In this document: positions 4,696 to 61,800 of the stretch, in pieces | Position numbering within the stretch: position 1 is the stretch's first letter | Layout: each line of letters begins with the position of its first letter | NCBI GenBank assembly: GCA_001599975.1 | Contig: BCIO01000003.1 | Span: 3,391,659 to 3,455,658, forward strand | Direction of reading: 5' to 3' | Origin: Cystobasidiopsis lactophilus | Taxonomy: Eukaryota > Basidiomycota > Agaricostilbomycetes > Agaricostilbales > Chionosphaeraceae | DNA: 64,000 bases | Translations under genes and position numbers: made by a program | Notes under the pieces: generated by a model | What the model saw: only the letters and a program-made list of their open reading frames with translations | Told to the model about the DNA's origin: nothing | The model's database searches: none

Positions 4696-6151
4696 TCACC
4701 CTTGCTTGACCTCATACTGAGTGTAGTCTGGAAGCCGTGATTGCTCGCTGCTGCCTGCAAATCTGGAGGCAATTGGGCTGACCAAGGCCGAAAGCCAACC
4801 CCCAACCTTCTCCAAAAGCGTAGAAGTCGTCACGAGGCCGACCACTCGCAGGCCGAGCAGCACCAGCTCGACGCCAGGCCGAGATTGCCAAAACAGCCAC
4901 TTCGGCACCCACACTGCTGGCCATTGACCGTCCTTGACGATGGGCCTCATCAACTGTTCGTAGCTAGCAAACGCTTGCACGTGGTTGCCATTGTGCTTGG
5001 CAAGCTCGCCGGCCAGAAGGTAGGCGCCAACAAGCGAGAAGCTGGTCCCTTGGCCGCTGAACGCCGTGCCACAGTATCCTGCGTCTCCCACCATCGTGAA
5101 GCGGCCCCGGCTCCAGAGAGGCATCCGAACTTGAGCTGATCGTTCGAGGTAAAAGTCGGTCTCTGGATGACCGAGCTGGGCCAGCTGAAGCAACATTCAC
5201 GTCAGCTTCACGATACCTTTGAGAGAACTCGTGATAGTTCTTACAACGTCAAGACCTTGGAAGCTGAGACCCTTGAAGCGGTCTTGGATGAACGACTTTT
5301 GCACCTCCGCGCTCGACTTTTCGACGCCGGTGGACGGGGTCCGCAGGATGGCGAAGGCAAAGGTGCCGCCTTGGTTGTCCGGCCTTATGACCAAAGTGCG
5401 CTTGCCAGTGGCGAACATGACACGCGAGAACTTGGAGTCTGGGCGCAAGAGCGGGCATCGCCAGTAGGCCGTGTAGAAGCCGAGGTCGAGCCGCTTGATC
5501 TCATCCTTGGTAAAAACGAGGCGACGGGATGACGATCCGACACCTTCAGTTGAGACCACGAGATCGAACTTGCGAGACGAGCCGGAGGCGAATTGAACTG
5601 TGATGCCGTCTGCCTGCTCCTGCAAAGACTGGATGTGGTCGCCGTAGATGTACTCCGTCTGGTTTAGGGCTTTGTCCACGAGGATTTGAGCCAGGTCGCC
5701 GCGCAAGATTTCGAGTTCATTGGTGAACGAGAATTCCTCCTTGAGGTCGGAAGGGACGCCAAAGGTGACCCGCGGGCGATCTTGCTCGTCCACAATCACG
5801 GCGCCCACCTCCTTCGTTCCCTTGAGACGGACTGCATCGATACTGGAGCTCCCTCCGTCACTATCGAAAATCAATGTTGTGGAAGAGCAACTCACATGTC
5901 CATTTTCTTGCCCACCTCTCGGCCGAGGTCCTGCAGGTCGATGCCTTGGCCGCCTTTGCGTAAAGAAGGTGCGCGCTCAACAATAGTTGTGGAGTAGCCA
6001 TAGCGATTCAACCAGTAAGCCAGTGCCGGTCCAGCGATTGACGCTCCAGAAATCAAGATCGACAGCTTGCCTTCTTGATCGACTCGTTCAATCGTGAAAC
6101 TAAGACCTCATGTTGTGATCACACACCTTTAAGAGCAGGGGTGGAGGACAT
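4696..6151 (-). CDS. FAD-dependent monooxygenase (TetX/PHBH-like)
   Basis: Class A flavin monooxygenase of 437 residues, read right to left. Exons are 6127..6151, 5896..6073, 5217..5860 and 4696..5162. The N-terminus carries the dinucleotide-binding fold (LSILISGASIAGPALAYWL, a GxGxxG variant with GASIAG) followed by the acidic strand end TTIVERAP. The mid-region has FDLVVSTEGVGSSSRR, the usual DG motif region with Glu in place of Asp. The GD motif GRFTMVGDAGYC lies in the last exon and binds the FAD ribityl chain. The C-terminus ends in a hydrophobic helix pair, so membrane association is possible. The substrate cannot be read from sequence; such enzymes hydroxylate aromatic or polyketide compounds. 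No biosynthetic partner genes lie beside it. The intron at 5861..5895 is only 35 nt. Exon phases agree throughout and the family call is secure. Confidence 0.88.
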
Positions 6152-6703: not shown

Positions 6704-7947
6704 CTATGAGCTACCATCTTTAGAAGCGTCAAGGCCGTGTCCCAAGCGCAAGTCTCTGAATCTCGCATCCCGCGCGCGACGGGCCAAATTCCAGCCGGTC
6801 CGCAAGTAGTCGGCCACCCTTTCGCGATAGATGCCCTTCTCTGGAAGAGCCTTCTTTCGTTCAGAGACCGCCATTTGGAGACGGTCCTTGAGACCTTGAA
6901 TAGCTTCGGCTTTCTTCTGCGAGTCGCGAGAGATTTGCTGAACACGGTGCATGAGGAGAGTGTGCATGCGGGATTGGTCACTGTGTTTGTCGTCGCGGGG
7001 TTTGTTCAACTCAGCCGACTGTATAATCCAAATTTTCGCCAGACTGGTTTGGAGGCGGTCGTCAGAGATGAAACACCCGGAACTGCATTTACTGTCGGGG
7101 CTGCCATGGTGCTTGTTGTAGAGAGAAGCGTAGTTGAAAGAAACCGTCATGTGGTAGAGAATGGTGATGATCGCCATCCGCCGCTGAAATTTAGGGTAGC
7201 CAGCTGTGGGACAGGTCAGAACGAGTCAGCTTGCCGCCTCCCACAACAGGAGAAGAAGCGAACCCGGATCTGTTATGATCCAATGGTAAGATTTCACTTT
7301 GGGGAAGCGCTGATCGAAACACTGGCAAAAGGCGACGAGAACCTCATCAAGCTTTGCCAGCGTCGAGCTGGCCCACGCTTTGTCCATGGCTTTGGCATGA
7401 TTGAAAAGGACCGACAGCCCTTTCATCGTTTCTATGATTTTCGGGCCAATAGTAAGACGCGTTGTTTCGTCTACTATCTGGAGCAGAGCGGCCATGGGCA
7501 CTGCGAAGGGGTGCTCGGCGTCGAGATGGCCAACGCGTATCTGTGGGCGACCGTTTCGATCACAAGGAGTGCCAGCAGTCTCCCTATATATCTTGTCGTT
7601 GAGGTCCAAACTGTCGATACCGAAGGCTCGCGCACTCACCTGTCTACAACAAGCTTGATGTCGGAGCTCGCCCAATAAATGGCCATTGCACGCTGCAGGA
7701 CAGTGTCTGCCGCCCTTTCCCAGTTTGAGCGGATGAACGTCAGGCGCGAGATTTGGCGAGCCCGCTCGGCCACGAAAAAGGCGATGAGCTCTTTCCAGGC
7801 CAGTTTCTGGTCATCGTGCAGGCGCAACGCCCCGGCGATGGGGAGGTTCTCCTCCGCCTCAGCGGCAGGAGGCTCTTCTTGGATAAGGGGGGAAGCATCT
7901 ACGAAGGGCTCCAGGGGACTAGTTTGTTCGATAAATTGGCCTGGCAT
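6704..7947 (-). CDS. Unknown family A, copy 1 (A1)
   Basis: I do not recognise this protein. Three exons, 7640..7947, 7264..7610 and 6704..7203, give 384 residues. It belongs to a local tandem family with A2 and A3. Shared features in order: an acidic, proline-rich N-terminus; a helical block (KLAWKELIAFFVAERA); RSNWERAADTVLQRA; a middle block ending in CFDQRFPK and HWIITDP; and a last-exon core LAKIWIIQSAELNKP followed by a basic tail with KGIYRER. No signal peptide, membrane span or catalytic motif is visible, and the composition suggests a soluble helical protein. The first intron is 29 nt (7611..7639), far shorter than its counterparts in A2 (57 nt) and A3 (53 nt) at the same phase. Start chosen at MPGQFIEQ, matching the start positions of A2 and A3. 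Confidence 0.7.
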
Positions 7948-8382
7948 CTTTTGCAATGGCGGCGCAAGGAGATTCAACACGTCTGCAAATAAGACTGCCG
8001 AGGTCTGCAGTTGGCCAGATGTAGGATGGAGGAAGGAGAACAACCGTGAGAGGACCCGAGAGGTGCATTTTGGCAAGCTCGCCGGGGCAGCAAAAGGCCC
8101 CTCGAATGGCCAGCTGAGCCGACAAAGGGAACCGGGGCAGCCAAAACTTCCTACTCGACGACCAAGACCGAGCTCATAGTCCACAAGGCTAGCCATTCCG
8201 AGAGGGTATTCCAAGGCTTCGCCGGGTCTGGCAGCCGAGCAGCAGTGGCGACTCGCTGAATTAAAGCATTTGCTGCATGGCACGGGGCATCAGGGGGTCA
8301 CATAAGCCACTCAAAAGGGCGCTCAGTGTAGCAAGCAAGGCAACTGGCGAGCAAGCAGTCATAAGAAAGCCAGAAGTTTGCG

Positions 8383-8438
8383 CCAACTCGGCCAAAGCGG
8401 AGCAAGAAGCGAGAGCCGGGCTTGGAGCTGCTCGTCGA
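8383..8438. repeat. Upstream block shared with A2 (copy 1)
   Basis: This stretch, about 440-490 nt upstream of the A1 start, matches 11172..11222 upstream of A2. Common segments are AGCAAGAAGCG/ACCAAGAAGCG and GGCTTGGAGCTG followed by TCGTCGAT. A related GCTTGGAGCTGCTCGGCCAA lies upstream of A3 at about 14113..14132. It could be a promoter element, a transcribed leader or a remnant of a larger duplicated unit. Confidence 0.6.
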
Positions 8439-8755
8439 TGTGCTCATTCTTAGTTCAACCGCTGCCTTGTGACTGTTGGTCCTAGTAGCTCGACTGGCGA
8501 GGCGGCGGTCCTGCGCCGACCTTCATCTGCGTCCAACAATGCTTCCAGATCAAGACTTGGCCGCGATTCCGGGTGCAAGGCTTTGCGGCTCGCTGAGCGC
8601 CCACGAACACCGAGAACGGGTCAGGAACGACGTCAACTCAGCTTAAGGCGAGCGAGTGGATTCAAGGGCGTCGTCTCTAGATTGCAGCGGCTAGGCAAGA
8701 AGCTGGTCGGATGATGGGAGCCCTCAACTGCGGGCGACCCGGACTCTGGCTTCCA

Positions 8756-9164
8756 TCAGCGCTTCCCTGGCGATACTCTGCGTCTCACCAGTGTTCGTCT
8801 TGAGGGGTAGCTGGAGCCCATGCGTGCCGGATGAGCGGGCGAGCGGGAACGGCTGTATGGGTTGGAGCGCAGCTGTGGCAAAAGGGCAGGCGGCACCGGG
8901 AAGCGCAACGGTGCAGGGTCTGGAGCATCCAGTGGTGGTCCAAGTGCGTCTGTATCCTCGTCCTCCTTCCGCCTCATCGACTCGACTCCATTCGCCTTTT
9001 CGGCGTCCGCATCATGCTCAAGGCCCGAACTTGAATATCCAGTTCCGTTCAGGCGACCTGCCTGCCAACGACTTGGATGCTCCCTTCGACCCATCGCCCC
9101 TTGCCTGCAGCCAAAGGTCGACTTCTGGGCTTCGGTCGCGAAGTAGGCATTGTCCGACTGACCC
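8756..9164 (-). CDS. Possible small hypothetical protein between A1 and A2
   Basis: An uninterrupted reading frame runs leftward from MGQSDNAYFATEAQ at about 9164 to a stop at 8756, about 136 residues. It is rich in Arg, Ser and Pro towards the C-terminus (RSNPYSRSRSPAHPAR) and has no recognisable domain. The frame extends further upstream without a clear start, and opposite-strand frames are also open here, so it may be chance. It lies in the gap between A1 and A2. It could be a lineage-specific gene, a decayed one or noise; I give it low weight. Confidence 0.2.
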
Positions 9165-9365
9165 ATTCCTTGTCCTTCAGTCTTTGAGCGAGGGCTGTTG
9201 CTGTGCTCATAGCAAGAAAGTGGGAAATGTAATATGTACAATTCTACCAGATCGAAACTAAGATGAGGGCCGGAAGATGGCACTATGCTATAACGATTGA
9301 AAACAAGACCGATGTGAATGCCCATCAGAGTTCGAAACCGAGCCCGCAAGCTGTTGAGATGCGCT

Positions 9366-10599
9366 TCAAAGACCGCGAAGGACATTAGCTCCTCGCATGT
9401 TCCACTTGTGGCGAAGGGCGTCCCATTTCATCCACACGCGATCCTGGATCCGCTCACGGTAGACGCCCTTGTTGTCTGGAAGTTTCTTCAAGTCGCCAAC
9501 AGCAATTTCCAAACGCTGGTTCCGATGCTCTTCGAGAACGCGAGCTTTGTGGGCTTCGGCAAGAATAGGCCAGACCCGCTGCATAAAGAGGACGCACGTG
9601 CGGTTGTTAAGAACAACATACGCCTCCTCATTACTTTTAGGCCTGTTTCGTTTGGTTTTGATTCGGAAATCTTGAGGTTTGCCTGCTTGAGCCGATTGCA
9701 AGATCCAAAGTTTAGCCAGGCAGTCAAGAACAGGGTCGTCAAGGCGAGACGCAGAGCGAGAGCAGCAACCGGAGACTTTCGAGCAGCTTCGGTGGTGATC
9801 GGCGTAAGCATTCGCATGCTCGACGTAAGCTTCCATGAGATGGAGCTGGGCGATGACCAACATTTTAGCCTGGCCACTTTTAAAGGCCTCTGTTGGTGGC
9901 ACCCCAAACAAGAATATTGAGCCAGGACACGCAGGATGGGGTCAAAGAATGCTGACCGGGATCTCTTACGACCCAGTGCCGCCGGGTGGTGCTTGGTTTT
10001 GGAAACTCTTTGTCAAAACGTTCGCAGAATATTCCGCAGAGTTGGCGCGCTTGACTTTGGATTCCGTCTTTGGCAGTTAGGCGATCACGGGCAGAACGTC
10101 CGACGAAATATTCTTTCAGGTGCTCGTACATTTCTTGCAGCTCCTCTTGGAGGACGTCGGATTTCTCTCGAAGGCACTTGATAGGTGCTGTGAAAGGATG
10201 CGTTTGATCTTGATGGGAAATGGGCGTCGAGAAGAAACCAAGGTGGTCGTAGAGGTTGGGATTGAATTTGCTGGAGCCACGGTGTGAAGATCAATGCGAA
10301 TGGGCAGTCCGGGCGAGATCGTCTCACTTTTCAACCTCGGCCATAATGCCTTTATCCTCCCAGCGAGCGGAAGTTGCATGCTCCAAAGCAATGCCGACTG
10401 CCCTCCTCCAGTTGGGTCGGATGAATGCCCACTTGTGATCGCGCTTAGCTATATAGAACTTGACAAGCTCTGTCCAGGCAGCCTTTTGCTTTGGGGTCAA
10501 AGGACCTCTGTCCAGCGTCTCTATTGAAGAGGCGTCAACAGAGGACGCAAGAGAAGCGCTGTCGTCGCTTGCGGTTGGAGAAGGCTCAACCTTTGGCAT
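9366..10599 (-). CDS. Unknown family A, copy 2 (A2)
   Basis: Second member of the tandem family, 369 residues from exons 10328..10599, 9957..10270 and 9366..9889. Intron phases (2, then 1) equal those of A1. Matching blocks are KAAWTELVKFYIAKRDHK, RPNWRRAVGIALEHA, CERFDKEFPK with RRHWVVRDP, and the core LAKLWILQSAQAGKP, then KGVYRERIQDRVW near the end. The N-terminus is short, acidic and Ser-rich (MPKVEPSPTASDD). No targeting signal or enzyme motif is visible. Neighbours A1 and A3 lie on the same strand with gaps of about 1.4-1.5 kb. Function unknown. Protein similarity to A1 and A3 is modest, so the duplications are not recent or the genes change quickly. Confidence 0.7.
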
Positions 10600-12051
10600 G
10601 GTGAAGTTTCTGGGGGGAAGAAGATGGGCCGCTGGACACCAGAGCAAAGATAGGGGCTGGCGGTCGTCGCCGCTTGAAGGTTTAAGGTGGAAGATAGCGC
10701 TGGGGCTCGGAAGAGGGAAGCAGCGAAGGGCGCAGAGATATTTCTGAGTGCGAGGCTTCACGGGGGCAAGAGACAGATCTAGCAAAGGCACAGAGCTATC
10801 TGCGTCTGTCTGGATGCTAATGGAAGAAGGACAACCTGCGCATTTCCCTGGCACCCTCTCCCGAGAAGCAGCAGCAGCGTTTCAGAAATGGCGACTTCCT
10901 CGGACGCAAGAACAACCGGCGACAAAGGGAAGCAGCAGCAACATTACTAGCTCTAGTGCGACCAAGTCTCTCCAACAGAACCTGTGCGGTGGGAGAGCAT
11001 TTAACTTCGGGCACGTCCAGATGAGGCTTGGGCACTGCGGCTCAGCCAATGGCAGTATCAGGCTCCGCTCTCGAAGCAGGCGGGCTAGCAAACACGACAT
11101 GCTCCATCTTTCTAGAGGGCGCTCAAGAAACAAGGCAACCCAGCAACCAAGCAGATGCGCAGATGAATCGAGGCAGCTCGCCAACGCGGACCAAGAAGCG
11201 CGGCTTGGAGCTGGTCGTCGATCCCGTCTTCCAATTTGTAGCCGGGGCGGTCCACGTCCAGCCCTCTGAAGTCATCAAGGACGCGTCTCACTGGCGCGCA
11301 ACGCAAAGAGGCCGCTCGAAGAGGGTCACCACGGCTCAGCAGCCTCTGCCGTCTTCAGCTCTGGTCCTGCCTGCTTCCCGCCGCGCTTCGTAGCTCTCGG
11401 CTTCTGGACATTGGTCACAGCATCTCTCTGACCAGGGCGATGCGCTGAAGCCTAAGGTCCGCTCGCCGCTTGAGGGACTCGGATCTTGCGGCTGGGACTT
11501 GAAGCGCTTTGAGCCGGGGGTGGCGATTCGCTCTGAGGACATTGCGTGGAACAAGGCGGTGATGGCATGATCAGTTGCGTTCCCTCTACGTGCTGTGCTT
11601 GCTTCACAATGCAGGCCATTCATCGAGCAGTCATCTCCGCTGCCCTCCCTATTCAATGCCCAGAGTCGACCTCCTTCGCCTCTACTTCCTCTTTTCCTCC
11701 CTTCAGTCCACCTTTCGCAGCTTGGCTGAGGTCTATGTCGTCGTAATGAATGGCTGTGGAAGCCCCTTCTTGTCGTTCCAGGCCGCCGGTGGACAAGCGC
11801 ACGAGCTTGATGTGGGTGGCCAACGCTCGTCGTTGCAAGATACTGTACTCAACTCACACTCAACAGGTTGCCATGCATTTGAGAGGTCTCGTTAAGGGTA
11901 CAAGTAGCCGTAGATGTCTTTGTTGGCTACGGGGAATGTGAGATTGGGAACTGCACAAGTCTAATGATAGCTGGGTACAAGAGATGAAAGCACGCGGTAA
12001 ACGAGCGAGACTATCAGAGTATCAGTTCGAGTATAAAAAGGCGAACGACCT
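10600..12051. other. Intergenic region between A2 and A3
   Basis: About 1.45 kb upstream of A2 and downstream of A3. It contains the block shared with the A1 upstream region (11172..11222). Several short open frames occur on the minus strand (for example about 11336..11656 and 11653..11838), but none has a recognisable domain or clear splice context. I call no gene here. A TATA-like ATAAAAAGG lies near 12033..12041 on the plus strand. Confidence 0.4.
11172..11222. repeat. Upstream block shared with A1 (copy 2)
   Basis: Counterpart of 8383..8438, about 570-620 nt upstream of the A2 start. It shares CCAAGAAGCG, GGCTTGGAGCTG and TCGTCGAT in the same order, and the DNA to its left (about 11105..11160) also aligns loosely with 8308..8375 (GGGCGCTCA, CAAGGCAAC, CAAGCAG). 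Confidence 0.6.
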
Positions 12052-13446
12052 CTATAAGTTGGGCTGCTCGCCGCGGAGGCCCAGAGCTCGAATGCGGTTC
12101 ATAAGTGCCAACTTGTCGCCCACCTTGGCAGCAACGTGATCCAACATTCTCTGGCGCTGCTGAGGGAAATAACCGCTCTCTTGACCTGTCTTAAGATTGA
12201 ATTTGGGAGGGGCCTTCTCCATTCGTGCAACGCGCTTGTCGCGTGCCGTCCGCTCTCTTGCCGTCCGCTCCAGCATTTCACAGACACGGGTCATGACGAG
12301 ACCTCGGAGGTGCGCTGAAACTTGTGTGCCGTCACCGTAGGCTTTGGGGCTTTCGTGCAAAGCGGAACGTAGGATCCACATGTCGGCTAGGGATTGGATG
12401 AGACGATCTTTCAGACCAATCGGACGGAAGATCATGAAGAGTCCAGCTTTGGTGTAGTCTTCCTTGAAAAGAAACAAATCCGCTGCATCAAAGATGGCCC
12501 GCTGGCAAATGCGAACGCGAGCGTCCATAGCTGTAAACCGTCAGCGAACGAAAATCGCTAGGGCAGCGAGCGCCAAGTTTCAAGAACACACCTGCACTTG
12601 GAACAGTCCAATACATTGAATGGCTATCCTTGACTTCCATGCCGTTAAAATGATCATCAAATCGCTTCAAAGCCGCGACGATAGCTGGTTTGATTTGGTT
12701 GTCCACAAGGGCTATGCTCGACCGCTCCACTTTTGCTGTGGCGCTTTCCAATTCCTTATGGTAGACAGCTTCGTTACGCTACAGAGAAAGATCGAATAGC
12801 TAAGCCAGCATCTCAATCAAGTCGATGCAACGCACCTGTCGTTTCTCTTCTGCATATTGCTCGCATAGTTTGCCTACTTCGGCCAGTATTTCTTCAATGT
12901 CAGCAAACACATTGGAAGCTTGATTCATTTCTTCGGAGTCGAGGCCTCTAGCGAAAAGGTCATCTCGCATAGGGTGATGCCAGACGGCCTGGGGTTTAAT
13001 TCCAAGATGGCCTTTGGCAGCAGCGTGTTCTCTGATACGATGAAACATTATGACAATCAAATAGACACAAGCGAGGCTACTCACTCGCGGGCGACTGTCA
13101 TAGCTGCCGACTTCGTGCATAGAACTCGAGCGCGTTGGAATGCCACTCGAATCATTTTGTCCCAATTAGGAGGCGCCACTTTCGTGGGTTCACGTCGACG
13201 GCCAGCCCAAAGTAAGGCGTTCTTCATCTTGGCCTTGACTGCCTCATTCCACTTTGGGCGCATCGCCAAGTGGAATTCAATGAGAGCTATCCAGATAGCA
13301 GCATCTTCTGGTGCAAGTATGTGGCCATCGGCACCCTTGATGACGGCAGGTTGCTCAGAGGATCTTTCTATACCCTCTGAGAACTTGGAGCCGGGTCTAG
13401 CGATATTGACTATTTGGGGGGCAGCTGGCTCGTTTACGTTGACCAT
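12052..13446 (-). CDS. Unknown family A, copy 3 (A3)
   Basis: Third and most divergent member, 407 residues from exons 13085..13446, 12836..13031, 12592..12778 and 12052..12530. It keeps the phase-2 first intron and the phase-1 last intron of A1 and A2 but has one extra phase-0 intron (12779..12835) in the middle block. Shared features are AAIWIALIEFHLAMRPK, PPNWDKMIRVAFQRA, RFDDHFNGM with HSMYWTVPSA, and the core LADMWILRSALHESP; the YRER motif is reduced to a region rich in Arg and Gln (YFPQQRQRM). The middle contains a likely coiled coil (EEILAEVGKLCEQYAEEKRQ). No enzyme signature, signal peptide or membrane span is visible. Start MVNVNEPAAP matches the start positions of the other copies. 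Confidence 0.68.
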
Positions 13447-14368
13447 TTGAGCTATGTTCGCTCCTGTGGAAAGCGTAGCGCTCGTAACCATCATCGAGAG
13501 TACAGAAAAACGTGAACAGGCGAGAAGAATAGTGAATGGCAGGGGTCGACCGCAGCCAGATGTGCACGATGTATTGAACTGTTCGTTGTGGCGAGTGATG
13601 AACAACCTCTATTTATCGAGAGAGCGTCCCAGGTCGCTGTTCGAAGCGAAGGAACCGAGCCCGAAGAAGAGAGACAGAAAGGCAAGCTCGGCTCGAGTTG
13701 GACAGCTCGGCGGACAAAGGACCCCCTCGAGCGATTCAGGGAAACAGGAGACCAGTCTTCCATTCCAGGAGGCGGTCTCGCATCGAGGCCGAGGATGACC
13801 ATCGGGGTCGACGAACAGGGACGGCTCGAGTGGGCAGCTCGGCGCACTCTCGAGCACTCTCGAGCCAACGCCGCGTTGACCTGTGTGCCTTTCAAGTAGT
13901 CTAAGGAGTAGGGCAAGAAGCCATGACAGACTTAAGAGACTGGTGACAGGGCAAAGCAAGCAAAGTCACGGTGTGGCAAATCAAACAATTCGCGACAGAA
14001 AGCCCAAATCTCACTTGAAAGGGTATCCAGGGCGTCAGGCACTCCATCAGACTAGCAGCAAACCAGCGCAAGAATACCGGACATGACCGACTCAGACCAA
14101 CAGGCTGGCGCGCTGCTTGGAGCTGCTCGGCCAACTTATGGCTTCCATTCTTGCCTTCTTCTGTTAACGTGTCTGGGCACTCTGGTCAACCACACTTGGT
14201 CCTAATCATCGTCTTTGCGCCGCGTCGAGTTCGCCGCAGGCGTTTTGCCGCCTGGTCCGTTGCTGGAAGCTTGTAAATTTTTGGGGCCATAATCTTTGCG
14301 GTAAGCGCTCGGCTTGACTTCTCATGTATCAGGTCTGACGGATTATAGGTGTGATCTGTCCTGCTCAG
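13447..14368. repeat. A3 upstream region with short direct repeats
   Basis: Noncoding in my reading. It contains a direct repeat of about 25 bp, GGCTCGAGT..GG.CAGCTCGGCG, near 13690..13715 and 13823..13847. It also has two adjacent copies of the 10-mer GCACTCTCGA at 13844..13863 and several CTCGAG palindromes. Near 14113..14132 it carries GCTTGGAGCTGCTCGGCCAA, related to the blocks upstream of A1 and A2. It lies between the divergent A3 and F-box genes, so it may hold promoters for both. Confidence 0.5.
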
Positions 14369-15780
14369 ATGCACCTCGCCGGCTTGCCCGTCGAGCTGCT
14401 CCACCGCATTGCCGGCTATTTGAACGCCACACCCGGGATCGATATTGGCAGGCAACAACCAGAGCCTTGCCTCCAGTTCTATCACCGGTCCGATTTCAAA
14501 ACGGCCTTCACCTGTCGAGCAGTCTACGCCGCCTTTGCTCCCGTCTTCCGGCGAAGTGTCTGTGTCAAGATCGATGGGCAAGACTTCCACCACACATCTG
14601 ACATGCATGCTCTACTGTATCAAAGACAAGGTCTTCTTCGGCATGTCCGACTCATCGAGCTTTATGTTGGAGGCGCGTCGCCGCTGGCCTTCTTCGAAGA
14701 GTTCTTGTCTTGGCCGGTGTTCCAGATAACGCGTCCCGGCGTGGCACTCAGCCTGACGAGAGTTCCACGGGCCCAGTTTGAAGCAGTTTTAGCAAGTGGA
14801 GTCTGGCGGCGGGATCAACTGGTCGACTTGGCGGTTCGCTTCAACAGTCATTCTGATTCGCTCCTCGACTTGACCCCTTTTGTTCGCCTACATGCGGTCA
14901 AAATTGATCATGTGGCTATTGTTCTCCGCACCAGAGATCACGACCTGTGCCGGCTGGGTTTCCAAGACATTTCGAGCTGGTCGATCAAGGACGGGCAATT
15001 GTTGGTTGGGGACAAGTGCTGCAGCTGGCCTTGGACGACGATCACCCCTTGTGCAGCTTGGAAGATGCGGAACTGGAGCGCCATCTGCAAGTTATGTGGC
15101 GGGCGGACCCGCATCGCGAGAGCCGCTTGTATCTGTACGCGCAAGCAGCGGCAAATCCCACCTTCCAGCTGGACTGGGGCCGAAGCATGTCAGCACTTCC
15201 GACAAACACGACCTTTCTCTTTATCGAGCTCCCCTACGAACGCGGAGATCTGGGTTGCATGCGTTTCAGCAAGATGGCGACCTGGGCACATCTAGCCCAC
15301 CTCACCGCCTTGACAAAATTGATCATCTGGTACCAGGCCGGCCCTCTGTCGCCTGATGTTCTCGACTCAGAAGACGACATGATGGAGCAGCAGGTCAATG
15401 CTGGGTGTTTCTCCCTTCACACGCTGGTGTTGCCGAACCTGGTGGATCTTGAAATACACTGCGACTGCGAGATGCCTTTTCAACACGAAGCTCTACTGGC
15501 CTCCTCCCTCAAGATTCTCACCGAGCAAGCGCATTCGCAACTACCGGCTCTCAGGCGCCTCGAACTGTGGCTGTCACGGGTGAAGCGGTGGCAGCGCTTG
15601 CTCAATTTCATGGGCGAGGTCGGCTTCGAGTTTGCGGTGGGATTCCGAGATCACGCAGACGACAAAGAGGAGGACTACCAGGATCCACAGGCAGACGCGG
15701 TGCCGCTAAGACGGATGGGATCTGAGGAGGAGTTCGAGGTGGTGGACGATTTCAAATCTCAAAGCTCGGAGGACGAATAG
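14369..15780 (+). CDS. F-box-like protein, frame change inside
   Basis: The N-terminus (MHLAGLPVELLHRIAGYLNA) has the LP..L...I..YL pattern of an F-box, which would bind Skp1 in an SCF ubiquitin ligase. The body is leucine-rich with LRR-like spacing (LTPFVRLHAVKIDHV, TALTKLIIWYQAG, LVLPNLVDLEIHCD), and the C-terminus is strongly acidic, ending EEEFEVVDDFKSQSSEDE. The reading frame changes between about 14912 and 15025. No intron with a good GTGCGT-type donor explains it; the best candidates are GTGGCT at 14912 or GTTCTC at 14921, spliced to an AG at 14976. A real frameshift or a sequence error is equally possible. The substrate cannot be predicted. F-box call moderate; exon join uncertain. 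Confidence 0.6.
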
Positions 15781-46669: not shown

Positions 46670-49600
46670 ATGTCGGCAGTGGTCCTCTCCCCCGCCCTCG
46701 CCTCGCACCCAGCCGTCCGACAGCGCAACAGCTCCGTCTCGTCCACAGCGAGCAGCAAGACTTTGATCGAGGACATGACCACCGCCGTCCTCCAGCCCAC
46801 CCACGACCGCCAGCACGCCGCTGGGGACCCTTTCAAGCCGGTCGCCTCCACCTCCTCCCTGCCTTACAGCCCGCCGCCCGTGCCGCAGGTGGCCAATGGC
46901 GTCGCGGCCGGCAAGAAAGCCCAGCAGCAGCAGCTCCAGCAGCCCACTTTTGTCAACCTGCCCAACTCAGCCCCTCGGTCTTACACCATCCTCAAAGAGG
47001 TCGGGGATGGCTCGTTTGGCACCGTCTGGCTCGCAGACTGGCATTCGCCGCTAGAGTACGTGCTCGAACCCCTTGGAACCCGGCCTGAACTAAAATTATT
47101 GTTTGTGGCGCTTCTTCCAGCCTACCGCCGGGCACAGCGCCGCCTGGCCCCTCCTCCCGCCCAGAGTACGCTGGCAAGAAGCTGGTGGCCATCAAACGCA
47201 TGAAAAAGTCCTTCACCGGCGGCTGGGACGAATGCATGAAGCTAAAAGAGCTCAAGGTTCGTCCTTCTTTCGCGCTCGCGCACACAATGCAACGGCTCGA
47301 AGTCCTCAATCTTGGGCACAAACAGTCATTACGGACAATACCAATGCACCCTAACATCATCCCTCTCTACGACGCCTTCCTGCTGCCCGCCACCAAAGAG
47401 CTCTACTTTGTGTTTGAGTGCATGGAGGGCAACTTGTACCAACTCACCAAATCCCGCAAGGGCCGGCCGCTAGCGGCAGGCCTGACCGCCTCCATCTTCC
47501 ACCAGATCCTCCTTGGCCTCCACCACATCCACACCGCCGGGTTCTTCCACCGGGACATGAAGCCCGAGAACTTGTTGATCACCACCACCGGCCTGGCCGA
47601 CTACCCGCCTTCGGCCGTCTACGCGCTGCCGGGCTCGCCGTACGAGAAGGATGTCACCTGCATCGTCAAGCTGGCCGACTTTGGCCTCGCAAGGGAGACG
47701 GCCTCAAAACCGCCGTACACCGAGTACGTCTCGACCAGGTGGTACCGCGCCCCCGAGGTTCTCCTCCGCTCCCGCGACTACTCCAACCCGGTCGATATGT
47801 GGGCCTTGGGCACCATCCTTGCCGAAATGGTCAACTTGAAGCCCCTCTTCCCGGGCCAGAGCGAGGTCGACCAAGTCATGCGCATTTGCACAATCCTAGG
47901 GGATCCAACCACTGACTACGGCCGCGATCCGAGAGGCCTACAACGAGGTGGTGGTGTGTGGGAAAAGGGCGTGAAACTGGCAAAGTCGGTCGGCTTTCAT
48001 TGGCCAAAGGTTCGTGGCGCTCTTCCTCCCGGAGAACTTCCTCTCAGCCAATTTCCTGTCTCGAACAGAACATGCCGGTCAACTTCCCCTCCCTGTTCGA
48101 CCAGAACTTGGCGTCTGCCCAGCTCATCGACTGCATTGCTGGCCTACTACGGTACGAGCCCAAAGCGCGGCTCACCACCCGCGAGTGCCTGGATCACGAC
48201 TACTTTCGCGACGTGGCTCCACGTTACCGTCCGCTCGGAGCGGCCGACCAGCAGCAGATCTTACCGCCAACACCAACGTCCATCAACGGCGGCCCGAGCC
48301 AATACATGGGCCCGCAAGTGCCGGCTCACATCGTGCCTCTCGCTTCGCCGCCACCCACCGGCCCCGACGGCCAGATTCCCCATCCCAGCTGGCAGTCTTA
48401 CCGACAATCTTCGGTCGTCTCTGTCCAGTCTATGCCCGAGTCCGTTGCGCCCTCGCCGATACCGCAACCTTGGGAGCGGACGAACGGCTCCTCCGTCTAT
48501 GCCTCGTCGTTGGCTGGTGCACAGCGTCGTCAAGCTACAGCGGCTTCTTCTATCGACTTTTACGACGGCTCCATCTTCGAAGGCATCGCGCCGACGCGCG
48601 ACGTTTCGCTGTACAACTATGCGACCAACTCGCCCACGCCCTCGCAGCTCAGCGCGTTCCAGGCGAATGGCCAGCAGACCATCTACGACGACGACTACTC
48701 TCGCAAGCTGCAGGAGGATGCCAACGCTCGGGCCCAAGCACAGGCCCACCAGCAGCAGCAACAGTCGACGAAGAAGGGCTGGTCTCTCACTTCGGTCTTC
48801 AACAACCAGCAAGCAGGTGGCTCTTCGCCTGGCTTGGGCTCGTCAGCAGCGAGCACGTCGCTCAAGCGGTCCACCTCCCAGAGGTCAGCGCACCAGGAGG
48901 AGCTGGCGCCCGCAGCGGCCGCAGGGAAACCGACGGACCCGAAGAAGGCCAAGAAGGAAGCCGAGAAGGCGGCCAAGGAGGCAGAGCGGGCGAGGCGCGA
49001 GGCAGCGCAGTTGGCAGCCCGAGAGCGCGCCCGGGCCGTCATGCAGAAGAAGTCGCAATTGGGCGCCAAGGCCGATACATTCTTTGGCACCTCCGAAGCC
49101 CAGCCCAACCTCATGCCATCGGCCAAGCCGGTGCACAAGCAGCTACCCAAGATGCACGGCAGCACGAGCCAGGCCAACCTCTTGCCGCAAATTGCCGAGG
49201 ACGCGTCCTCGTCTTCCAGGCTGGTGCCGTTCGACGTGCGGTGGAAGGCCAGGCGGCGGGACGACGACGACGACGTGCACTCAGTGTCCAGCAGCGAGAC
49301 CCGCAACTCGAACGAACGCCGCTACTCCGTCTCGTCGTTCAACACAGTCGACTCGGACCCTGGCCCGCGCGCTTTCCTAAGCGGTCAAGCTTCTCGCATG
49401 ACCACCGGCTCGTCCTTCAGCTCGTTTGGATCCCGACGCAGTGGTCTGGAGCACTCTTTCCATCTGCCCTTGGCGCAAGAGTATGGGGCGCCGCCACCGG
49501 GCACCTCTGGCTCTTCGGTTGACCACCACCTGGCGCAGACCTTCCAAGGGCTCACCGCGGCGGACGCTTCGCAATGGAACGGCAGCCCCTATCAGAGTCC

Positions 49601-56730: not shown

Positions 56731-58742
56731 ATGATGAAGGAGGAAGAGCCAACCACAGTGTTGGAGGAGATCATGCCGGAGAAGCTTGAGGAGGACAACA
56801 AACCTGAGGCGACGACGCCGGACAGCGACGCTTTGCCATTGCCGCACTGCCTGGACGACGACAATGCACCCAAGCATGCGGACGAAGAGAAAGCCTTCAC
56901 CAAGCCCAAGCGGCGGAAGCCTCGCAAGGTGCTCAAGGGCATGCGCTCTCGCCCGCTCATTGTCATCCCCAGAACCGCTCTCGATAAGCGGACGCCCATA
57001 GCCTTGGACACTAAACACAAGAGCTCCGCCTGGGTCTCGCTCTTTTACGACCTCATCTTCGTTTCCATCCTGTAAGCCAGTCTCTCCGCTTGCGCCGGAA
57101 CCTCAGAGACAAAACAAGGCTGAGGCTTTCTGGCGGCGAAAGGACGATCTTCTCTCACGACTCTGAAGTGGCCTCTCCAGAAGGCATCCCCATCCTGGTC
57201 TCCTACTTCCTCATCGTCTGGGTGGTGTGGACGTCGCAGCTGGTGTACGACTGCCGCTACCAGGCCGAGGACTGGCTCCACCGCGTGTTCAAGTTCTTCC
57301 AGGTCGTCATCTTCATGTACTTGGGCGCCAGCAGCGTGGGCTGGAACCTAGGCCACCTCTCCGTCGACCCGCGCGACACCTCGGTGCACGCCGTCGACAA
57401 CTTCCTCTCCCAGCAGAGCTTCAACACGGTGGCCCTCGCCTACGCCGTCTCCCGCCTCGTTCTCACCATCCAGTACGTCATCGTCGTCGTGCTGGCCATC
57501 CGCACGAAGCACGCTTGGAAGTCGCTCCTGATCCCCATCGTTTGCGGCACCGTGTCCACCATCTTTTCCGTCTTTGCCGCCATCTGCACTTTCCAGAACA
57601 GAGGCATCATCAGCACCAAGATCGCCCTGCTCTACATCGGGATCGCAATCGAAGCGATGGGCATCGTGGCAGAGGTGTTCGCCAAGGCGACCGTCAAGTG
57701 GTCAGACCACGAGCTGTCGGAGCGGCTGGGAGGCTTGACCATCATCATGCTTGGCGAAGGTAGGTTTCGAGCGTGTCATAGAGTGCTCGCAAAGTCACTA
57801 ACAAATGCCAAATTTAACAGGCCTGATTGGCATCCTGGGCAGCTTCAACAAGGCGCTCGGCTCCTTCTCCGCCGACTCGAGCGCATCTTACGGCAACGCC
57901 CTGGCCGCGGTCAGTGTCGTCTACTTCCTGTTCACCTTTATATTCGACGGCCTGCTGGACAGCCACTCCTTTGGCACGAAGCGCCTCATGCTCTGGCTGC
58001 TCCTCCACCTACCCCTCCACCTCGGTCTTCTCCTGCTCCTGGCCGCCGCACGCAACTGCATCACGGCCTTCAGCGTCTCTACGGGCCTCGCATACCTCCT
58101 CGCCACCGCCAATAATTGGACCCCCGACAACAACAAGCTGACGCTCCTGATTGGCCGCCTCGATCTCAGCCCGCCCTGGCCTATCGAGGTCGAATACCTG
58201 GACAGCCTCTCCGAAAACGCCACCCAATTCGCCGACGCGCTCAAGTACACCGCTCAGGTCGAATACAAGACGTTCGAGCTCTATGGGTTCGGCATCAGCC
58301 CTGCAGCAGCGCACAACTACGCCACTCTGCTCACATCTTCTGCCAACGACACTCTCGATAAGTATGCCAACTGGGAGGAATCGCTTTACGCCGGCATGTT
58401 CGACGGCGGCATCTGGCTCCTGCCGACTTGCGGTATCACCCTGATCCTCATCGCTCTGGCTACCTACTTGCGCAGCGGCGTTCGAGGCAAGCTTGTCCAC
58501 CTTTGCCCAGTTTACCTAGTCTGATCCACTCTGCAGAATACCCGCAGTTTGTCATTGGTGTCATTCTGTCATTGCTCGGCCTGCTCGACATTGGTGGCGA
58601 AGACTCGCCCTTGTACAACCTCACTTCATCGGGTTGGGCGTTGCCGACTTTGGCGCTCTCGTTGTTCGTCATCTGGGCCCACGGTGTGCTCGTGACGGTG
58701 CGAGCAGCGCGGAAAGAGATGCGTCAAACGAAGAGCAAGTGA
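56731..58742 (+). CDS. LtrA-type (low temperature requirement A) membrane protein
   Basis: Multi-span membrane protein of 609 residues. Exons are 56731..57071, 57143..57759, 57821..58486 and 58537..58742. An acidic/basic N-terminus of about 95 residues leads to the LtrA signature WVSLFYDLIFVSILTIFSHD, followed by GIPILVSYFLIVWVVWTSQL, VFKFFQVVIFMYLGASS, FNTVALAYAVSRLVLTIQYV, ERLGGLTIIMLGEG and later SVVYFLFTFIFDGLLD. About ten spans are likely, with a luminal or outer loop between them (TPDNNKLTLLIGRLDLSPPW). LtrA was named from Listeria cold growth; fungal function is unknown. The last intron (58487..58536) begins GCAAGC, a GC-AG intron. Start at MMKEEEPTTV is the first in-frame ATG; total length fits. 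Confidence 0.82.
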
Positions 58743-58820: not shown

Positions 58821-61800
58821 TCAAATGGTGCTGTGCTCCCAGGCCTCGACATCGCTGGCGAAGTCTGCCAAACCCTCCAGGCACGCATCGACCATGGCGC
58901 CCCGGTCCCACTGCCCGCGATGCTCCCAAACGATCTCGCTCAGAACGGCTCGCAGCTGCTCTAGCTGGTCCACGCTGAAAGAGCTTGTCCGAAGCTCGAG
59001 ATTGTGCGCTAATGACTGGACCAAATCTTCTGGCAACACAAAATCGGGAAGCGGCTCGGGCGGCGGAGTGGGCTCCCTGTCAAGCGCCATGGGTTGCTCT
59101 TCGGCCACGGGCGGCAATGCTTCTGTCGCTGGAGGCGGGACAATGGCGGCGGCGGGCAGCGGCAAGGGGTCGTTCAAAAGATGGGACAAGGTGGAAGGCG
59201 ACGGCGAAGGCTCTGCCAAATGATTGATGCCGTTGGGCAGGTGGATGCCGTTGACGGCCGGCGTCGCAGGGACTTCCGCGGGCGCTGCGCCAGGCTCGTC
59301 GGCGCGCAACCTCTTGCGAGCTGCCTCCTCTTCGCCTAGTGGGTCTTCCGACCGCGCTCGCTTGCCATTTGCAGCGGCTTGCGGGTCCTCTGGCGCTGGA
59401 TCTTTCGGATCCACCAGCACGACCTGCTTGGCCTTGCCCTTTTGCTTCTTGATCCGCTCCCGCTCTCTAGCAGCCATCCGCGTGCACTCGATCTGGAAGC
59501 TGGCGTCGCACGCCTGGTCGCACATCACGGTGGCATAATTGAGCATCATGCCTGCCCTGGCGACTTGCTCGGGATCGGTGTCGAGGGAGGCATTGTTGAC
59601 AATAATATGAACATCGGCGAGGAACTCGGCAGGCGTTAGATAGTGATCGTAGAACAGATCGTGGTGGATGACATCCAAATCGATATTCACAAACTTGTGG
59701 CGAATAGGTGCTGGCTCTGGCTCAGCTGCTTCGGGTTCTTGCAGAGCGGCGGCAGACTCGGGTGCGGCGGCCCCGTCAACGCCGTCTTCGGGAGCGCCAT
59801 CGACTGTTCCTGACACGCCAGTGCCGTTGACTTGCACCGGAGATGGGCGAGGAAGTGTGATCTCGTCCTCCGACATGATGTCGACGGGCGTGGGCGCGCG
59901 GACGGGAGGCGGTGGCGGCATCTCTTCCTCTGGTGCCAGCTCGGGCGAGGGCGGTGGGATGTAGTCGTCGCCGATGGGACGACAGAACCGCTTGAACCGC
60001 TTGCGTAGCTCTTGCACGACAGGGCCCAGCTTGAACTTGAGGTACTCCCGCAAGCGAAAGTCGTTCTCGGCTTGTTGGCGGAGCTCGGCGTCGCTGAGTG
60101 GGCGCGCGACCGGTGGCGGGGCTTTGGGAAGTTCTTCCAGAACTCTTTTCTTGCGCGGCAGGGCGTCTGGGAATTGTGTGGGCGGCATGCGAACGTGGGC
60201 GATGGTTTCCGCGAAGAATTCGCGCCGCTGGATCTGTGACCGCGGCATTAGTTGTGCAATGTTACAACAGCCGAGAACGCCACAGCTGCTTACCAATGAA
60301 GGCTTCTCGAGAACGATGCGGTTGTTGCGCATAAAGCCGAACCAAGCTCGAACGTCGGCCGGCAGCTCATCAATGTTGCAGTCGGCTACGGCCAGAAGCA
60401 GGACTTGGTCGCTGGGCTCGAGGCCAGTCTCCAGCAGTGAAGCCATGGTGCTGCGAACTTGTTCGGAAACAGTGTCGCACCAGCCCTTCAAGCTGGGCAG
60501 ATAGATGATGGATGGCTTGTGGCGCTTAGCCTCGACGAAGAGCTGTACGATGGCAGCTTCCGGTGAACGCGTTGAATCACTGACGAGGGTGCCGAGATCA
60601 AGCGGCTGGACGAGGTAGCCATCGAGGTGGTGTAAGATGGCCGCGCCCAAGCGAGACTGCCCCAAGCCAGGCTCGCCGAGAATCAGCAGCCGGGGCCGGT
60701 AAACCCGAGAGGAGTCGAAGGCTGTTGAATACAGGCAGGCAGGCTGAGAGTCAGAACACGATTGAGGACGAGACCGGCTAAACGCACAGGACAGCATCTT
60801 TTGCTTGGTAAAATTAGCACCATCAGCCGCGTCTTCCTCAAACTCGGCTTCTTCCAGCACGCTGATCTTCTTGGCGCTTGGTAGGATCTTGGACAGAATG
60901 CCTTTGGCCTTTTCGAGGACAGGATCGATGATAGGCTTGAGGTGATCAGGCACAGGCGCTGCCAAGCTAGAGGCGGAGCGAGCAGTTGAAGGGATGAGAT
61001 CTGTTGTGTGCGCCGGTAAGTAACTTGACGGGTCAGAGAGCGAGGAGCACGCCTCACTTTTGGCAGAAATGACAAAGTCGCGCGCGGTCACTTCGATCGA
61101 CTCGGGCTTAATGAGCAAGCGGTCCGAAGTTTTGTAGATCTGAGGGTAACGCCTTTGGACAGCATTGAGAGCAGCCTCTGTGCACAAGGCCTGCGCACGA
61201 TAAAATCAGAGCGCTCGGAAAACGATCGCAACAACGCTCGCTCACCCGCATATCAGCGCCACCGTAGCCTTTGGTCATGAGTGCGAGCTCATCCTTGAAG
61301 TCGTCGGTCAGGCCGGGTTGCCAGCCCTTGGTGTGGATGTCGATAATGGCTCTCCGGGCGGTCTTGTTGGGCAACGGGAAGTAGAACTCGCGGTCGAAGC
61401 GGCCGGGGCGACGCAAGGCAGGATCAACGGCGTCCGGCCTGTTGGTGGCACCGATGACGATGACTTGGCCACGCCCGTCCATGCCATCCATCAGAGCCAG
61501 CAAGGTGGAGACGATGGAGGCGTGGATCTGGTCTTGCTTGCTGCTGCGCACCGGCGCAAGCCCTGTTGACAACGCAAAAACCTGGATGGGTGCCGGAAAG
61601 GATACTCGTAGAATAGAACCGATACGAACCGTCGATCTCGTCAAAGAAAATGATGGAAGGCTGGCTCTGCTTGGCCTCTTCGAAAAGCAGACGGAGCTGC
61701 CTCTCGGCCTCGCCCACCCACTTGCTCAAGCAATCCGCTCCTTTCCGCATGAAAAAGGCTGTACATCGAAATATACGGTGGAACAGTCAGCAAGAATCTG

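Follow-up and report, generated by a model that had tools for sequence, protein, structure and literature searches.

In Schizosaccharomyces, the wtf genes form a multi-copy family of multi-intron, diverged paralogues that share the FLEX motif, an 11-bp site located in intron 1 or upstream and bound by Mei4 (PMC9562144). A common regulatory motif can thus occur throughout a set of fungal paralogues that have diverged. Here, we present an analysis of a gene family in the basidiomycete Cystobasidiopsis lactophilus that resembles wtf in being multi-copy, multi-intron, and diverged with shared cis-regulatory-like DNA, and differs from it in carrying a family-specific upstream element of 146-313 nucleotides (nt) and not an 11-bp site. 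The window, by which we mean the whole 64,000-nt stretch of DNA analysed, corresponds to positions 3391659-3455658 of contig BCIO01000003.1 (C3) within a 22.1-Mb genome of 8 contigs. It contains the genes A1, A2, and A3 (cluster A); three more genes, B1, B2, and B3 (cluster B), are located on this contig at a distance of 2.4 Mb. The non-coding element precedes all six genes, on the same strand as the gene and 300-748 nt before the predicted ATG. The presence of the element in front of all six genes is new, and the family is uncharacterised and larger than three. We assign a probability of roughly 0.55 to the interpretation that this six-member family is co-regulated via its own promoter modules and encodes soluble, basic, and probably helical intracellular proteins.

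Repeats before the genes of the window prompted a blastn comparison of the upstream regions, in which the element was detected between B1 and B2 (76.5% identity over 281 nt, expectation value [E] 1e-51), B2 and B3 (67% over 240), B1 and B3 (68% over 208), A2 and B1 (64% over 217, E 4e-12), and A1 and A2 (71% over 130, E 6e-10). Each cluster was also searched with the profile of the other, in the window plus a further 38 kb of sequence. A profile built from cluster B only recovered the elements of A1 (8441-8291, E 9.9e-13), A2 (11305-11132, E 3.3e-13), and A3 (14146-14011, E 5.6e-8), and a profile built from cluster A only recovered the three B elements (E 1e-12, 1.2e-9, and 1.1e-8). For B1 and B2, the 76.5% identity of the element compares with 41% for the coding DNA and 29% for third codon positions; between the clusters, the elements of A3 or A2 are 59-62% identical to those of B1 and B2, against 32-34% for the third positions of these pairs. 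Because the flanks can be aligned across clusters 2.4 Mb apart and third positions are near saturation, we suggest that the flank is under selection. Judged by its mismatches, the element does not look coding: in the longest ungapped block between B1 and B2 (133 nt), mismatches fall 10/11/12 over the three phases, and in the next block 3/5/4; a further, short block of 43 nt is uneven (3/8/2), and the gap runs are 1, 2, 5, and 6. The flank similarity could instead have no function and mostly reflect gene conversion or segments copied at a late stage, an idea favoured by the B1 and B2 elements being the most alike (75%) even though the proteins are 27% identical; however, the preservation of the element over 2.4 Mb, at nearly twice the identity of third positions in the same pairs, makes this quite improbable. 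As a separate observation, the B1 element (C3:982146-982456) overlaps the start of the open frame of a divergent neighbour (C3:981572-982429, minus strand), which we take, from its leucine-rich-repeat look, to be SOG2-like; the first codons of this neighbour may be misplaced, or the B1 element may serve two promoters.

The core of the element is CTCCAAG, a spacer of 6-22 nt, and then CTTGGTCCGCGTTGGC with variants. The exact 16-mer CTTGGTCCGCGKTGGC occurs at four places in the genome, all of them before family genes (B1, B2, B3, and A2); allowing up to two mismatches gives 121 places, including the A1 copy, versus 48 for the reversed control. A loose composite core was found at 15 places (all six family genes and nine elsewhere) and at none in the reversed control, and a third-order Markov model predicts ~12 (3 hits in 5.5 Mb). 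The core is family-specific at full stringency, but the loose composite core is not. Based on the Markov expectation and the poor element-profile scores in the nine non-family 3.1-kb stretches (best E 0.0038 and 0.011), we read these nine places as chance and not as a wider regulon. One of them, C3:1377500-1380600, has a compact CTCCAAG..CTTGGTCCGCG core inside long open frames (element profile E 0.0038) and is likewise read as chance. Diverged copies elsewhere could escape detection, since even the A copies were not picked up when the B1 element was used as a DNA query.

It is also conceivable, though rather unlikely, that the element is transcribed and conserved as RNA, either as a non-coding RNA or as a long 5' leader, and not as promoter DNA. 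Consistently with this idea, all six copies have the orientation of the gene, and 8 of 34 predicted pairs have both sides changed in at least one sequence. However, tandem duplication also preserves orientation, no Rfam family reached the gathering threshold within the window, and in the consensus fold of five copies the covariation term is unfavourable (+2.96 kcal/mol), leaving an RNA fold of the element unsupported.

A second conserved non-coding block is located ~50-125 nt past the stop codon of A3, B1, B2, and B3. In blastn, five of the six pairs were reported with E 9e-7 to 0.02, and a profile of the B1-B3 blocks recovered the A3 block at 11994-11942 (E 5.8e-7); downstream of A1 and A2 it had no match. 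The 3' motif KTAGACWTGTGYAGT is found at exactly three places, all after family genes (A3, B2, and B3); with one mismatch, there are eight more places versus five for the reversed control.

The genes themselves were described by hand-built, predicted spliced models, in which the exon joins are predictions. Using the last exon of A3 as a query against the genome, we found two more loci on C3, and reading of this region yielded B1-B3. The first-pass annotation had proposed a tandem family of three genes; the family is real, but it has at least six members, of which A1-A3 are half of the known ones. No convincing seventh member was found with the six proteins as queries against their own genome, and these counts are lower bounds. 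Two candidates, C6:159699-159923 (E 7e-4) and C4:926928-927179 (E 0.14), were rejected as chance, since the last-exon profile of the six members, run with a cut-off of E 10, did not match their open frames. Leave-one-out profiles built from the other five members recovered all six proteins. Scaled to 10,000 sequences, E ranged from 1.1e-34 to 5.1e-64, with 1.1e-34 for A1, 1.2e-42 for A2, and 1.8e-43 for A3; among 1200 shuffled sequences, none scored better than E 1.6 against the six-member profile. Likewise, a cluster B profile recovered all three A members (E 2e-47 to 6e-17) and a cluster A profile all three B members (E 3e-42 to 9e-20); the weakest link is that between an A1+A2 profile and A3 (E 3.4e-4). 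Pairwise, the six proteins are 17-35% identical, and A1, A2, and A3 20-30%. The protein tree groups A1+A2 (100/100), A3+B1 (90/91), and B2+B3 (86/86), with one of three inner branches above the star threshold of the program.

In the predicted models, A1 and A2 have two introns with phases 2 and 1, while A3, B1, B2, and B3 have three with phases 2, 0, and 1, so that the middle phase-0 intron is common to these four and absent from A1 and A2. The split between A1/A2 and the other four is consistent across the tree (100/100), the intron number, and the 3' block. The introns are 48-73 nt long, and 15 of 16 have GT..AG ends. Intron 1 of B3 (C3:988578-988650) fits only with a GC donor where the other five genes have GT; B3 may have a rare GC-AG intron or be an early decaying copy. 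As previously proposed, three same-strand genes carry shared blocks in the same order, and the first intron is in phase 2 and the last in phase 1, which we found in all six models (in B3, with the GC donor). The proposed core LAxxWIxxSA is present but too strict, and it generalises to L[AS]xxW[IV][IL]xxA; similarly, the HW of the FD..F..HW block is kept in A1, A2, and B2 and replaced by YW, AW, and CW in A3, B1, and B3. Two weak splice donors (GTTCGC in A1 intron 2 and GTCAGC in A2 intron 2) and the one GC donor could indicate gene-model artefacts or decaying pseudogenes. However, the six copies, diverged as they are, have consistent open frames and intron phases, the profile scores lie far above those of the shuffles, and second codon positions are better conserved than third positions in every pair, so this explanation is hardly credible. 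On the basis of these comparisons, A1, A2, and A3 are real, diverged, same-strand, intron-bearing paralogues.

Identity is higher at second than at third codon positions in each of the 15 pairs. This suggests constraint on the proteins, with the reservation that a codon alignment guided by proteins somewhat favours second-position conservation. At third positions, the identity of these pairs is 26-42%, which is close to saturation, and the age of the family therefore cannot be read. The rapid divergence suggested in the first-pass annotation is thus not shown. All six proteins have an isoelectric point of 8.8-9.4. By hydropathy only, with no dedicated predictor, none of the six has a membrane or signal-peptide-like stretch; the best 19-residue value near the N terminus is at most 0.47 in all six, in which they are unlike secreted effectors. 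Wtf proteins are membrane proteins, and in lacking a membrane-type hydrophobic stretch the A and B proteins are unlike them as well.

The earlier view of a local amplification with no recognised core held up, with no credible match in Pfam, NCBIfam, the PDB, or a protein collection. Pfam had nothing near cut-off for any of the six members (best E 0.032, Filament), including no TPR family, and neither had NCBIfam (best E 0.14). In exon 1, a tryptophan-rich, two-helix spacing of W, ~20 residues, and NW resembles, by eye, a Myb/SANT-like DNA-binding domain (PF12776), but none of the six first-exon sequences matched this or any other Pfam family at E up to 10. No PDB chain was found with the full-length profile at E up to 1 or with the first-exon profile at E up to 10. 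The last-exon profile returned six PDB sequences at E up to 10, the best of which, 4y6w (8.3e-8) and 4y6c (5.3e-7), are kinesin-light-chain-type TPR-like chains; these values are sums over several weak stretches that singly have E 0.86 to 4 or worse, with shifting registers and no in-register single stretch, and we read them, weakly, as helical repetition and not as homology. In the protein collection, there was no match at E up to 1 among 7730 candidates, nor among 7997 scored candidates. The control, a 220-aa (amino acid) LtrA-like piece with 294 candidates and no match, was ill-suited, as full-length relatives exceed the length limits; it is uninformative on the fungal coverage of the collection, and coverage of this lineage in the databases is unproven. 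Because this control failed, database absence is weak evidence of novelty. For the A3 last exon, there were 5 pattern matches in viral contigs and 62 in prokaryote contigs, of which none was confirmed, and the literature searched names no such family. Two exon structure models (three window sequences each) were built; they are all-helical or nearly so, but with mean pLDDT (predicted local distance difference test) values of 57.5 and 52.9 they are too poor for fold search or comparison. From these models and the last-exon matches we consider the six proteins probably helical, which is a weak inference.

The family might also be a conflict family, i.e. a meiotic driver or self-recognition set in which expression timing is fixed and the proteins diverge. 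The tandem and split clusters, the low protein identity (17-35%), and the conserved regulatory-like DNA would fit such a scenario. By contrast, no poison/antidote architecture was seen, although no test was aimed at one, and the second-position constraint extends to all pairs. Searching each gene plus 1 kb upstream, we found no FLEX motif (GTAAACAAACA) with fewer than two mismatches in any of the six genes, the best being two mismatches in A3 (opposite strand) and three in the other five. STE3 pheromone-receptor matches are on C4 and C1 and clusters A and B on C3, arguing against STE3 linkage; in a homeodomain search that covered Homeobox_KN but not the HD2-type family PF00046, matches are at C1:4761248 and, weak and partial, at C3:1185043, ~195 kb from cluster B. 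There is no close link of the clusters to mating loci among these STE3 and Homeobox_KN matches. The two STE3-type loci are C4:1994434-1995499 and C1:2329659-2330000, the latter with internal stops, perhaps introns; like the gene structure and content, these matches fit a fungus, probably a basidiomycete. We consider a conflict family very unlikely, and the suggestion in the first-pass annotation of a role in conflict, mating, or host interaction gained no specific support, with no sign of secretion by hydropathy and no STE3 linkage.

Several observations weigh against co-regulation of six helical proteins via promoter modules. The A3 element is weak: by blastn its matches to B1 and B2 (E 4e-4 and 5.6e-5) are all in the opposite orientation, and those to A1 and A2, on the same strand, have E 0.087 and 0.24, and the sole other match of either cross-cluster profile at E up to 1 is antisense at this same copy (E 0.0094). 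Element resemblance tracks the cluster and not the protein tree, in that the B1 element is nearest that of B2 whereas the B1 protein is nearest A3; some of the likeness between elements may thus come from gene conversion within cluster B. With one mismatch, the 16-mer occurs at 12 further places in the genome. Finally, the low quality of the structure models means that they do not confirm a helical fold. Weighing these points, we still favour co-regulation via promoter modules. The six genes would be ancient paralogues, each with its own family-specific promoter module ~300-750 nt before the ATG. The simplest role for the element would be that of a promoter module, which predicts co-expression: one regulator would read the module, and the six genes would be expressed together. 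The 3'-flank block may tune mRNA end formation or stability in one subfamily. We speculate, as a guess from their soluble, basic, and probably helical character, that the proteins most likely serve as subunits for binding or scaffolding, which may belong to a mixed assembly. A stronger version, in which a dedicated regulon has its promoter module, together with a 3' module in one subfamily, constrained more than its proteins, with expression timing held constant as the proteins diverge, we regard as unlikely.

Table 1. Features of clusters A and B and other genes of the window. Locations are window positions, except those with the prefix C3, which are contig positions.
Feature	Location	Strand	Remarks
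Upstream element of A1	8293..8557	-	346-610 nt before ATG
Upstream element of A2	11091..11347	-	492-748 nt before ATG; holds exact 16-mer CTTGGTCCGCGTTGGC
Upstream element of A3	14012..14157	-	566-711 nt before ATG; profile of other five copies E 1.6e-11
3'-flank block of A3	11928..12010	-	After stop codon; common to B1, B2, B3
Gene A1	6704..7947	-	Predicted, 375 aa; exons 7947-7640, 7583-7264, 7203-6704
Gene A2	9366..10599	-	Predicted, 369 aa; exons 10599-10328, 10270-9957, 9889-9366
Gene A3	12052..13446	-	Predicted, 407 aa; exons 13446-13085, 13031-12836, 12778-12592, 12530-12052
Gene B1	C3:982806-984256	+	Predicted model
Gene B2	C3:985536-986826	+	Predicted model
Gene B3	C3:988288-989618	+	Predicted model
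Protein kinase	47089-48000	+	Pfam
LtrA-type membrane protein	57015-58113	+	Pfam
AAA ATPase	58824-61205	-	Pfam

Two further neighbours in the window have exons without a Pfam match: 5197-5976 (minus strand), presumably, by eye, a FAD-dependent monooxygenase, and 14348-15292 (plus strand), which by the same kind of resemblance we take to be an F-box protein.

Families without recognised domains usually lack a functional handle, and in this family the shared flanking DNA supplies one. The element could be used as bait for the regulator and to find out under which condition the six genes are all active. As its conservation is confined to the family, co-regulation can be tested directly. Moreover, the family is a clean case of non-coding DNA that outlasts its own coding sequence among paralogues. 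If the genes did form a dedicated regulon, with fixed timing and diverging proteins, its pattern would be the one to expect of a recognition or drive system or of a mixed assembly with several subunits.

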